34,034 bases of DNA from contig JAHFKK010000001.1 of the NCBI GenBank assembly GCA_023245335.1, positions 1,064,019-1,098,052 on the forward strand, written 5' to 3'. Below, in pieces: positions 4,870-9,672 of the stretch; the stretch's first letter is position 1, and the number at the start of each line of letters is the position of its first letter. The notes under the pieces are model-generated. The model did no database searches, was not told where the DNA came from, and worked only from the letters and a program-made list of their open reading frames with translations. Made by a program: the position numbers and the translations under genes. Origin of the DNA: Candidatus Gottesmanbacteria bacterium. GTDB taxonomy: Bacteria > Patescibacteriota > Microgenomatia > UBA10105 > UBA927.

Positions 4870-4925
4870 AAAAAGCTCAGTTAAGAGCCTTGTACCGCCA
4901 AGCGGATTTATGTATGTATAGATCG

Positions 4926-4991
4926 GACAGATCTAGACAGCCGGACAGACCGGACAGCTTTCTCGGCAGGGACCAGACAGATCTCGGACAG
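4926..4991 (+). repeat. Cluster of six GACAG motifs within 66 bp
   Basis: GACAG at 4926, 4936, 4944, 4953, 4976 and 4987; lies upstream of the 5052 gene. Confidence 0.5.
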
Positions 4992-5051
4992 GACATATCC
5001 TATAGCATATTTTGGGTCAAAAATCAACCTAATCATGGTATACTTGGCCCT

Positions 5052-7289
5052 ATGGGACTCATACGTTGGTGTGACAGGCTCATTACGGGTGGTTACTTCC
5101 TGCTGTTTGCTCTCGTGCCGCTTCTTTTGACTCCCTGGAATTACGAACTCTTTGAATACAACAAAATGATGGCCGTTTATGGCCTCACGGTCATTATCCT
5201 AGCGAGCTGGGTGACGAAAATGCTCGTGCAAAAGGAATTTCGCGTGCGCCGGACGGTTCTCGACGTCCCGATAGTATTATTTGTGCTTTCACAGCTTGTC
5301 AGTGCGGCCTTTTCTCTGGATCCGCACGTATCGTGGTTTGGGTACTACAGTAGGTTTAACGGCGGCATGTGGTCAGTATTCTCCTACGTCATCCTCTACT
5401 ACGGGTTCGTTTCCAACTTCGCTCCTTCCGAAACGCCCACACGAACCAAAAATCAAAAAATGAATGCAAAAAACAGCGCTATGATTCCGCACGATGAATC
5501 CAAAGCCACAACCACGAAGTTTCTCCAGGCCTCCCTCATCACGGCGACGCTCGTTGCAGTGTATGGGGTACTTGAGCATATGGGGATCGACAAACACGTC
5601 TGGATACAGGACGTACAGAACCGCGTCTTCAGCACTCTGGGGCAACCCAACTGGCTGGCGGCCTACCTTGTGGCACTCACACCGCTTACGTGGTTTTTCG
5701 CGCTCAATACTCAATACACAATGACCAATAATACTCAAAAAAGGGTGAGGGACATTCATTGGATATTGAGTATTGTATATTGGATATTGTCCGCTCTCTT
5801 TTTCCTCACCCTACTCTATACCCGCAGCCGTTCAGGACTCTTGGGTTTGGCTGTAGCGGATGTCGTGTTCTGGGGAATCGTTTTGCTTCAAAGGAAATTC
5901 AACAAAACCACTTCCTACTCACTACTCACTATTCACTGTCTTTTTGCACTCATTATCTTTATTAACGGCACCAACATCGCACAAATAGATAGATACGTTA
6001 CCCTCGACGGATGGAAAGCAGCGCTTAGTAAGCAGAACACAGAAAGTAGTAAACAGACAACACAAAAAACGACCTATACCGCACCCGCATTGGAATCCGG
6101 AGGGACGGAATCAGGGACGATACGGAAATACGTCTGGGAAGCCGCGATACGGGCTTGGCGAAGCAGTACCAAAACCATGCTGATCGGTACCGGCACCGAA
6201 ACATTTGCGTTCGCCTTTTATCAGTTCCGGCCGGTCGGACATAACCAGACGTCCGAATGGGATTTCCTCTATAACAAAGCCCACAATGAATACCTGAACT
6301 ACCTCGCCACGACGGGTATCTTTGGTTTAGGAAGCTATCTCCTCATGCTTCTGGCCTTCACCATATGGTTTGGTAAAACCCAATTCACGAAACGTGATCT
6401 CCAACCGGATAATAAAAATCTTCAGTGGTCTCCCGACATGGGAGACTGGATACTGACCTCTGCCCTATTTGCCGGCTGGCTGTCCATATTGATCACGAAC
6501 TTTTTCGGTTTCTCGGTCGTCGTGACGCAAGTGAGCCTCTTTCTTTTCCCGGCCGCCGCCATATCCTTAAGCGACAAAACGGAGCCCGCATATCTTCGCA
6601 TACCGCTCTCGGTTCCGGCTTGGATATCATGGTTTCCTATCCTCGTCGCACTCTGGCTTATCACGACACTTTCTTCCATGTGGTACGCGGATAAGCAGTT
6701 CGCACTGGGCTACCAATATGACCGGGCGGGACTCTATGGTCAGGCCATGCCCGCGCTCCTTTCCGCCCTTGCCATAAACCCGAATGAGCCGCTCTACCAT
6801 GATGAAATTTCTACGGCTTACGCAGCCCTTGCGACCGGTTCGTTTACGGCGACCAAGAACGCAACACAGGCCGCACAGTTGGCACAAAGTGCTATGGCCG
6901 AAAGCGATAAAGCACTCGAGATATCTCCCAAAAACGTGAACTTCCTCAAATCCAGGACCAAAGTCTATTACACATTGTCAGCTCTGGACCCTTCATTCAA
7001 CACTGCCGCTATACATACGCTGAATCAAGCCGCGAAGCTCTCGCCAAACGACCCGAAAATTTATTATAACCTCGCGATCCTCCTGGGTCGGGAACAACAG
7101 AATGACGGGGCGATCAAAGATCTCCTCCAGGCAAAAGTTCTGAAGCCCGACTACCGCGATGCGTATAATGCGCTCAATATATTTTACGGCGAGATGGGGA
7201 AAAAAGCCGAAGCGCGGGCAATACTCGAAGAGTATCTGACGAAGATAAACCCTGATGATGCTGATTTTAAAACAAGAGCGGCAAAATGA
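5052..7289 (+). CDS. O-antigen ligase/Wzy-like polytopic membrane protein with C-terminal TPR repeats
   Basis: Many TM segments, ligase-like loop (GTGTETFAFAFYQFRP...WDFLYNKAHNEYLNYLATTGIFGLGSYL), TPR-like C terminus. Start at MGLIRWCDRL (5052) preferred because TATACT lies 7 nt upstream. Confidence 0.8.
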   Translation: MGLIRWCDRLITGGYFLLFALVPLLLTPWNYELFEYNKMMAVYGLTVIILASWVTKMLVQKEFRVRRTVLDVPIVLFVLSQLVSAAFSLDPHVSWFGYYSRFNGGMWSVFSYVILYYGFVSNFAPSETPTRTKNQKMNAKNSAMIPHDESKATTTKFLQASLITATLVAVYGVLEHMGIDKHVWIQDVQNRVFSTLGQPNWLAAYLVALTPLTWFFALNTQYTMTNNTQKRVRDIHWILSIVYWILSALFFLTLLYTRSRSGLLGLAVADVVFWGIVLLQRKFNKTTSYSLLTIHCLFALIIFINGTNIAQIDRYVTLDGWKAALSKQNTESSKQTTQKTTYTAPALESGGTESGTIRKYVWEAAIRAWRSSTKTMLIGTGTETFAFAFYQFRPVGHNQTSEWDFLYNKAHNEYLNYLATTGIFGLGSYLLMLLAFTIWFGKTQFTKRDLQPDNKNLQWSPDMGDWILTSALFAGWLSILITNFFGFSVVVTQVSLFLFPAAAISLSDKTEPAYLRIPLSVPAWISWFPILVALWLITTLSSMWYADKQFALGYQYDRAGLYGQAMPALLSALAINPNEPLYHDEISTAYAALATGSFTATKNATQAAQLAQSAMAESDKALEISPKNVNFLKSRTKVYYTLSALDPSFNTAAIHTLNQAAKLSPNDPKIYYNLAILLGREQQNDGAIKDLLQAKVLKPDYRDAYNALNIFYGEMGKKAEARAILEEYLTKINPDDADFKTRAAK
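5705..5789. repeat. AT-rich repeat inside CDS: 12-bp inverted repeat and 11-bp direct repeats
   Basis: CAATACTCAATA (5705-5716) / TATTGAGTATTG (5764-5775); ATTGGATATTG at 5758-5768 and 5779-5789 (encodes repeated WILS). Confidence 0.6.
5915..5940. repeat. Low-complexity repeat related to 7961-7990 (ACTACTCACTATTC core)
   Basis: ctactcactactcactattcactgtc; shares the 14-nt core ACTACTCACTATTC with a second copy inside fmt, read in a different frame. Confidence 0.6.
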
Positions 7290-7831: not shown

Positions 7832-7897
7832 TGTCATCGCGAGCTTGGCGTGGCGATCCCGTCGGGATTGCTTCATCGAAGACTCCTCGCAATGACA
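7832..7897. mobile_element. 66-bp palindromic (MITE-like) element, no ORF of its own
   Basis: TIR TGTCATCGCGAG / CTCGCAATGACA (one mismatch), internal ATCCC-gtc-GGGAT; starts directly after the def TAA; CATTA on both sides (7826-7830, 7898-7902) with one extra base. Confidence 0.65.
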
Positions 7898-7903
7898 CAT
7901 TAT

Positions 7904-8953
7904 ATGATGAATATCCTTTTTTTCGGCTCCACGACTGACTCGGTCATCATTTTAGACAAACTATTTACTACTCACTATTCGCTATTCACTCCGCGGATCA
8001 CCGCGATTGTCACCCAACCCCCGCGCCCCGTTGGCCGCAAACAACTCATGACGCCGACCCCGGTAGAAACATGGGCGAAAACGCGCGCGATCACCGTCCT
8101 GTCATTTCCATCCAATACGGCAAAACCCTGGCTGTATCTGGACGAAGCACAGGTCGTAGATGCACTGGAACCTTTGAAAGCCGACCTTATCGTATCCGCC
8201 TCTTACGGCCAAAAAATCCCGGCCAAGACGCTGAAAGACGCCAAATTTGGCGGGCTCAACGTCCATCCGTCACTCCTCCCCCGCTGGCGCGGCGGGGATC
8301 CGGTTCCGTGGGCCATTATGACCGGAGACCACCAGACGGGTGTCACGATCGTATCGTTGTCGGAAAAGTTTGATGCAGGAATAATCTATGCACAGAAAAA
8401 AATTCCAATCACCGGTACGGACACTAGCCGTGCTCTCCGAACTAAACTCTTTGAACTTGGTGCCAATCTTCTTGCCGACCTCCTACCACTCTACATAACC
8501 GGTAAGGCCAAAGGAAAACCACAAACCCTATCACAAACCGTATCATCGCAAGCCCATTCATCGGGGCGTGGCAAATCCGCCAGGTTTAAACCTGTTCAAC
8601 CCGGCGGGTTGATTAGGTTCAAACCTCTTCCTGTTCCTGAAAACGACGAACCGCGGGCGAGGCGCCTTTCCCGCGATACGGGATACGAGCCTTGGGACAC
8701 CATCCTCAAAGCACTATCGAACGAAACGGAGGCTACTCGCATCGAACGCAAATACCGCGCGCTCAATCCGTGGCCGGGAGTGTGGACCCTCCTTCGCCAA
8801 GACTTCGGAGGGCAGGCCGAAAAACGTTTAAAAATTTTGAAATTACATTTGGATAACGGATTACTGGCCATTGATGAGGTGCAATTGGAAGGTAAAAATC
8901 CGGTGTCATGGCAGCAATTTTCCCAAGCCTATCTCCCACCGATATCCTCTTGA
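7904..8953 (+). CDS. fmt: Methionyl-tRNA formyltransferase with internal repeat-encoded insertions
   Basis: AIVTQPPRPVGRK, FGGLNVHPSLLPRWRGGDPVPWAIMTGDHQTGVTIV, and ERKYRALNPWPGVWT...KRLKIL. ORF track start 7850 lies in the upstream repeat; MMNILFFGS start preferred. Confidence 0.9.
   Translation: MMNILFFGSTTDSVIILDKLFTTHYSLFTPRITAIVTQPPRPVGRKQLMTPTPVETWAKTRAITVLSFPSNTAKPWLYLDEAQVVDALEPLKADLIVSASYGQKIPAKTLKDAKFGGLNVHPSLLPRWRGGDPVPWAIMTGDHQTGVTIVSLSEKFDAGIIYAQKKIPITGTDTSRALRTKLFELGANLLADLLPLYITGKAKGKPQTLSQTVSSQAHSSGRGKSARFKPVQPGGLIRFKPLPVPENDEPRARRLSRDTGYEPWDTILKALSNETEATRIERKYRALNPWPGVWTLLRQDFGGQAEKRLKILKLHLDNGLLAIDEVQLEGKNPVSWQQFSQAYLPPISS
7961..7990. repeat. Low-complexity repeat inside fmt, related to 5915-5940
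   Basis: ctatttactactcactattcgctattcact; encodes LFTTHYSLFT, which breaks the usual Fmt N-terminal spacing. Confidence 0.6.
8582..8626. repeat. 45-nt palindromic insertion inside fmt
   Basis: AGGTTTAAACCT / AGGTTCAAACCT arms (11 of 12 paired) enclosing CAACCC-ggc-GGGTTG; encodes RFKPVQPGGLIRFKP. Confidence 0.75.
8787..8816. repeat. Palindromic insertion in the fmt C-terminal domain
   Basis: CCCTCC-ttcgccaagacttc-GGAGGG; encodes LRQDFGGQA between NPWPGVWT and KRLKIL, which lie close together in typical Fmt. Confidence 0.65.
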
Positions 8954-9296: not shown

Positions 9297-9672
9297 TGTC
9301 ATTGCGAATCCCGATTCAATCGGGATGAAGCAAACCCGCTGGAAACGTGTGTACTATATTTATATTCTTTCCAACCTTCGGAACACAGTCTTGTATACGA
9401 GCGTTACCAACAACCTCAATCGCTGACTTTCAGAACATAGGAAATCTACAGGGCTTCATTTCACTCAGCGATATAATGTCACTAAGCTAGTATATTTTGA
9501 GCAGTTTCCTCGTATTATCGACGCAATTAATCGCGAAAAACAAATCAAGGCAGGATCAAGAAAAAAGAAGGAAAGCCTTATTGACGGCATAAATCCTCAG
9601 TGGAGCGATCTTGCAGCAAATCTTATTTAACGGGATTGCCGCGTCGTTCGATGACTCACTTCTCGCAATGAC
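9297..9672. mobile_element. 376-bp candidate element: TIR-flanked GIY-YIG nuclease gene remnant
   Basis: Left end TGTCATTGCGA, right end CTCGCAATGAC (10 of 11 complementary); ends resemble the 66-bp element at 7832; starts directly after a TAA stop. Confidence 0.65.
9325..9630 (+). pseudogene. GIY-YIG endonuclease family protein, interrupted by in-frame TGA
   Basis: MKQTRWKRVYYIYILSNLRNTVLYTSVTNNLNR*LSEHRKSTGLHFTQRYNVTKLVYFEQFPRIIDAINREKQIKAGSRKKKESLIDGINPQWSDLAANLI; TGA at 9424-9426; YIG changed to YTS. Confidence 0.8.

Follow-up and report, generated by a model that had tools for sequence, protein, structure and literature searches.

Palindromic elements within coding sequences

Rickettsia palindromic elements (RPEs) are dispersed palindromes that lie in frame within unrelated conserved genes and add extra peptides to the encoded proteins at tolerant places (PMC10969869, PMC3733652). 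In REP/RAYT systems, including REPtrons and TIRtrons, inverted palindromes bound a single Y1 gene and solo copies are dispersed, some of them intragenic (PMC3733652). In-frame palindromes are thus already known, both as Rickettsia elements and as intragenic REPs (PMC10969869, PMC3733652). Small non-autonomous elements of the MITE/ERIC type have also been identified within coding sequence in enterobacteria (PMC2229807, PMC2759123).

The DNA analysed here (34,034 nucleotides, referred to as the window) is part of a 1.22 Mb contig from a genome of 1.55 Mb. The host is a tiny uncultured groundwater bacterium and very probably belongs to the Patescibacteria (candidate phyla radiation). Its fmt gene contains a 45-nt palindrome (element B), a 30-nt palindrome (element C) and a short heptamer array (tract A). 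Similar to RPEs, palindromes were found here in frame in fmt, infB, recR, map, mreB, valS, gltX and other genes. The units are 20–50 nt long, however, compared with approximately 150 nt in the first-described RPE (range approximately 100–150 nt), and for several families the genome that carries them also encodes a Y1 transposase that matches. The host also belongs to another phylum and the sequences are apparently unrelated. No CGTC tag, as in RPEs, is evident in B or C. Element B resembles REP/RAYT systems in showing inverted copies that bound one Y1 gene together with dispersed solo copies. The GTAG tetranucleotide by the hairpin is absent from the B consensus of aligned copies, and B is made up of two or three hairpins side by side, which places it nearer to the TIR-type variant of REP/RAYT. 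Unlike in REP/RAYT systems, in-frame intragenic copies are frequent here and not the exception, and several families occupy one linker. A resemblance to IS200/IS605 ends is seen in genome G007, in which the Fmt insert matches hairpins beside a 142-aa Y1 TnpA open frame of the same genome; the difference is that solo 35-nt copies occur without a gene, one of them kept as fmt codons. MITE/ERIC-type elements are approximately 100–170 bp long, whereas the units here are far shorter and are found repeatedly at a single site of orthologous proteins.

No report of in-frame palindromic insertion in Patescibacteria or the candidate phyla radiation was found in the literature searched, with subscription papers mostly outside coverage. 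As far as that literature goes, in-frame palindromes in Patescibacteria, genomes that pair in-frame elements with the Y1 transposases matching them, and a single linker repeatedly occupied by unrelated families are all new. To our knowledge, the mover of RPEs has so far been an open question. The co-occurrence of in-frame palindromes and matching Y1 transposases in single genomes makes the mechanism directly testable.

The fmt gene and its product

The fmt gene (7904–8953, + strand) encodes a methionyl-tRNA formyltransferase of 349 aa, a conserved enzyme of translation initiation, and is adjoined by def. Both Pfam domains, Formyl_trans_N (6.8e-33) and Formyl_trans_C (1.5e-9), were identified in the product, which scores 181 bits against TIGR00460, under the cut-off of 201.5. 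The N-domain can be aligned to solved Fmt chains across the NVHPSLLPRWRG and FDAG regions; RFKPVQPGGLIR is a further peptide stretch of this protein. Genomes are labelled with G000 as the genome of the window, and G018, G020 and the record L228 belong to the same genus; in G000, most of the small contigs were read along with the main contig. The Fmt of G020, the nearest relative, is 75% identical to that of G000. Over aligned codons against G020, dN is 0.22 and dS approximately 2.7, indicating that fmt is under purifying selection, and its frame is open. Pseudogene status was considered and ruled out by a dN/dS of approximately 0.08, with dS near saturation.

The earlier note had described three repeat tracts inside fmt (7961–7990, 8582–8626 and 8787–8816), and all of them are confirmed at these places. 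In an alignment of Fmt from 22 genomes, the three tracts are located at length-variable sites: tract A before strand AIVTQP, B in the linker between the N- and C-domains, and C in the turn after NPWPGvWT. An AlphaFold model (two input sequences, mean pLDDT 52) predicts residues 24–29 between a helix and a strand, residues 200–259 as low-confidence coil and residues 298–306 between two strands, a weak agreement in kind with the placement from the alignment.

Tract A and heptamer arrays

Tract A (7958–7990, + strand) is a 7-nt quasi-tandem array with the units CTATTTA CTACTCA CTATTCG CTATTCA, lying in the loop before AIVTQP. Similar arrays occur in the genome, with 11 period-7 arrays observed vs 3–5 in codon-shuffled controls, and comparable short arrays were recognised by eye at the Fmt sites of G005, G006, G007, G008, G011 and G012. 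Tract A is only approximately 4 aa longer than insert-free relatives and a diverged, decayed version is present in G020, and so it is not a clean insertion. The repeat reported in the earlier note therefore exists, but not as a discrete insert. That note had also named a finding that would speak against insertion, namely relatives carrying the same peptide segments with diverged DNA; this is seen in part for the heptamer tract, in G020, and for neither palindrome. Tract A represents an older expansion of heptamers, located in a third loop and outside the insertion model. An O-antigen-ligase-type gene upstream (4890–7289) likewise contains in-frame heptamer arrays, at 5705–5790 and 5905–5937 of the window (ILSIVYWILS, SYSLLTIHCLF).

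Element B and the associated Y1 transposase

Element B (8582–8626, + strand; AGGTTTAAACCTGTTCAACCCGGCGGGTTGATTAGGTTCAAACCT) is translated as 15 codons, RFKPVQPGGLIRFKP, and consists of three consecutive hairpins, AGGTTTAAACCT, CAACCCGGCGGGTTG and AGGTTCAAACCT. Five more copies of its two-hairpin unit lie elsewhere on this contig, with blastn E values as low as 4e-12. Across 280 genomes, a strict full-length triple-hairpin pattern matched only the fmt copy, indicating that the triple form is unusual and that the two-hairpin unit is the dispersed one. Reversed control patterns for B and C gave zero matches, and a plasmid search with the cruciform region returned none. Element B is contained in an expanded interdomain linker (8525–8644, + strand) of 40 codons, compared with three residues (LGK) in the Fmt of G020 in the 22-genome alignment; the expansion exceeds the palindrome itself. 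The rest of the linker insert, including the part upstream of B (8525–8581, with GCCCATTCATCGGGGCGTGGC), shows no repeat-family match in this genome.

Two inverted B copies bound a Y1 transposase gene encoding 225 aa (contig position 905428–906102), and the right-hand copy provides its stop codon. The protein scores 34.9 bits against Y1_Tnp (cut-off 23), contains the MPNHFH motif and is the sole Y1_Tnp match detected in the genome. In the RAYT equivalog test (NF047646) it reaches 47.3 bits, under the cut-off of 80. Homologous Y1 genes bounded by B were also identified in four other genera (G012, G013, G014 and G015). The fmt copy of B is 97% identical to a transposase end and G020 has no insert, which makes the insertion recent relative to the split of G000 and G020. 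The claim that this palindrome is an insert is thus borne out by a dispersed family and an insert-free congeneric Fmt.

Many different Y1 transposase genes are present in related genomes (L178–L227, up to 10 per genome), many with an end palindrome family of their own. In G013 and G015 (L240, L241), a TTTAAAGG-family palindrome lies in frame within a Y1 transposase gene that is flanked by the same family.

Element C and related palindrome families

Element C (8787–8816, + strand; CCCTCCTTCGCCAAGACTTCGGAGGGCAGG) is a CCCTCC...GGAGGGCAGG hairpin translated as LRQDFGGQA. According to the earlier note it separates NPWPGVWT from KRLKIL, which are normally close in Fmt; the same-genus record L228 agrees, reading WSTVNGKRLKLL. 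With up to 3 mismatches, three further copies of C are found in this genome and the family occurs in 55 of the 187 genomes of the class, with zero matches for the reversed control pattern; its description as an insert is upheld. Among 96 distinct copies, mutual information peaks exactly at stem pairs 11/14, 10/15 and 3/22 (0.74, 0.67 and 0.57 bits vs a shuffled maximum of 0.20), so the stem covaries.

Thirty loci were read, and C was found in frame in many conserved genes, including valS, recR, mreB, map, argS, dprA, the gene for an NAD(P)H-hydrate dehydratase and that for an ABC ATPase. At C, RecR has five and MreB four extra residues compared with the solved proteins. Within G000, infB (SSRPSSAEATAGRPPVVAVLGHVDHG) and a gene for a cobalamin adenosyltransferase also contain C. 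At the infB site, C is absent in G020, and G018 and G002 have other GGCAGG palindromes there, as judged from retrieved loci only and with an IF-2 probe that is generic beyond its first 48 residues. In the fmt of G013 (L101), C occupies the same position and itself encloses another palindrome (CCGCCTGCCGGCAGG), and the frame is still open. A single element is found in the fmt genes of G001 and G023, inverted in one relative to the other.

Direct repeats of at least 6 nt, often A-rich, flank 7 of 31 C copies, a number reached in 0 of 2000 shuffles; most copies have none. These repeats may be target duplications, or C may have inserted into heptamer arrays. Elements of the C type in L148, L149, L171, L173 and the fmt of G014 (L103) are flanked by heptamer-like repeats, e.g., CAAAAGTC or CAAAATTC. 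For the transposases of this taxonomic family, none of the scanned Y1 loci had a full C hairpin at its ends, and Y1 loci collected later gave no C match.

Related palindrome families lie in frame in further genes, namely those for glutamyl-tRNA synthetase (gltX in G013 and G015), a RarA-type ATPase, LepA, CoaD-DUF359, a glycosyltransferase, PheS, a glmS-type product, a penicillin-binding protein and a PfkB-type kinase, and also within the transposase gene itself. In CoaD-DUF359, two different families are located at about the same place, in G005 (L312) and G015 (L239). CoaD-DUF359 is a second convergent site.

The Fmt linker as a recurrent site

A search was performed with 102 end queries from 51 Y1-type loci (a few representing the same gene) against 79 kb around 22 fmt genes. 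All strong transposase-end matches fall inside the Fmt linker, which makes up approximately 2% of the DNA searched, in five genera (G000, G005, G007, G008 and G013). One additional match has an E of 0.003 and is chance-like. The five linker palindromes represent five distinct families. In G000, G005, G007 and G013, the palindrome is matched by transposase loci from within the genome itself; the G008 palindrome has its matching ends in G005 and G015. The peptides encoded by the linker inserts are unrelated (RFKPVQPGG, HTFKGGTLQG, HTLEVIQLRTSG, SRYHVLKQDN and KGVAFKGS), and several congeners have no linker insert in the 22-genome alignment. By a rough estimate, which assumes approximately 5 intragenic copies per genome and approximately 1,100 genes and depends on the assumed copy number, approximately 0.1 matches would be expected in one named gene over the 21 other genomes; four were seen. 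The test began from fmt, so that G000 itself is ascertained.

With five unrelated families in one linker, nature has in effect replicated an experiment on which places in a protein take up new sequence. Such inserts also bear on annotation: they may depress family-model scores, as with the TIGR00460 score of this Fmt, and they seed similar peptides in unrelated proteins.

Origin of the inserts and alternative explanations

We consider it very probable that element B is a solo, non-autonomous end hairpin of a Y1 element that was put into fmt and retained as protein, that C was acquired likewise and that A is a heptamer expansion. The hairpin in the linker would be a copy of the end hairpin of a Y1 (IS200/REP-type) single-strand transposase, and this transposase, or its ancestor, would have placed it into fmt. 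The enzyme would have survived, and B been kept as protein, because the unit is stop-free in frame, consists of whole codons and sits in a flexible interdomain linker. Element C would represent a second, class-wide hairpin family doing likewise in a turn of the C-domain. Survival of the inserts would then reflect tolerance of the loops rather than a benefit, whatever effect they may have on Fmt.

The segments could instead be normal, rapidly evolving loops of Fmt that resemble repeats by coincidence. All three sites do vary in length and sequence across the Fmt family, and tract A is common to G020 in diverged form, but at the nucleotide level B and C have counterparts in dispersed DNA families, the reversed controls are empty, and the transposase-end matches in fmt loci are concentrated in the linker. 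The dispersed copies contradict this explanation for B and C, and it may hold for tract A; for the locus as a whole we consider it highly improbable. Nearly as improbable is a role as regulatory RNA hairpins (REP-like attenuators or stability elements) in the fmt mRNA, with translation incidental. The mid-gene position with an unbroken reading frame, the unrelated or missing hairpins at the same site in orthologues and the occurrence of the same families in many unrelated genes all speak against such a role. As would be expected of an RNA element, the predicted RNA fold of the B segment is strong (−24 kcal/mol) and the stem of C covaries, but DNA hairpins recognised by Y1 transposases should covary too.

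An adaptive origin, in which selection holds the added residues for their tuning of tRNA binding or of domain movement in Fmt, appears unlikely. It could account for inserts in the same linker in five genera, and for the finding that in G000, G007 and G008 no family member other than the one in fmt was seen inside a long conserved gene. The peptides, however, are unrelated between inserts, several congeners lack any insert, and the same families are also found within unrelated proteins.

Capture of mobile hairpins, our preferred explanation, agrees with the parallel to Rickettsia elements drawn in the earlier note as far as the two palindromes are concerned: both belong to dispersed families, are absent from congeneric orthologues and are whole-codon inserts in a linker or turn. 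The parallel does not extend unchanged to all three tracts: a Y1 transposase is additionally associated with the 45-nt palindrome, and the heptamer tract differs in nature. The finding is also more general than that note supposed. Tentatively, and with somewhat more doubt than confidence, we suggest that in these Patescibacteria new protein segments regularly arise from Y1 hairpins and palindromes like them, with stop-free units repeatedly recolonising loops, chiefly the Fmt linker, and loops evolving by serial hairpin insertion and point change.

Repeats around fmt

Element D, a TGTCATCGCGAG...CTCGCAATGACA repeat without assigned strand, lies outside the gene in the def–fmt gap (7832–7897) and has partial copies elsewhere in the genome. 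Repeats of the TGTCATTGCGAG type are intergenic around fmt, at 7832–7897 and 9298–9332 of the window. Relatives of these repeats lie in frame within a tgt gene (contig position 934720–936045) and within a MiaB-type radical SAM gene (481224–482489) of the same genome.
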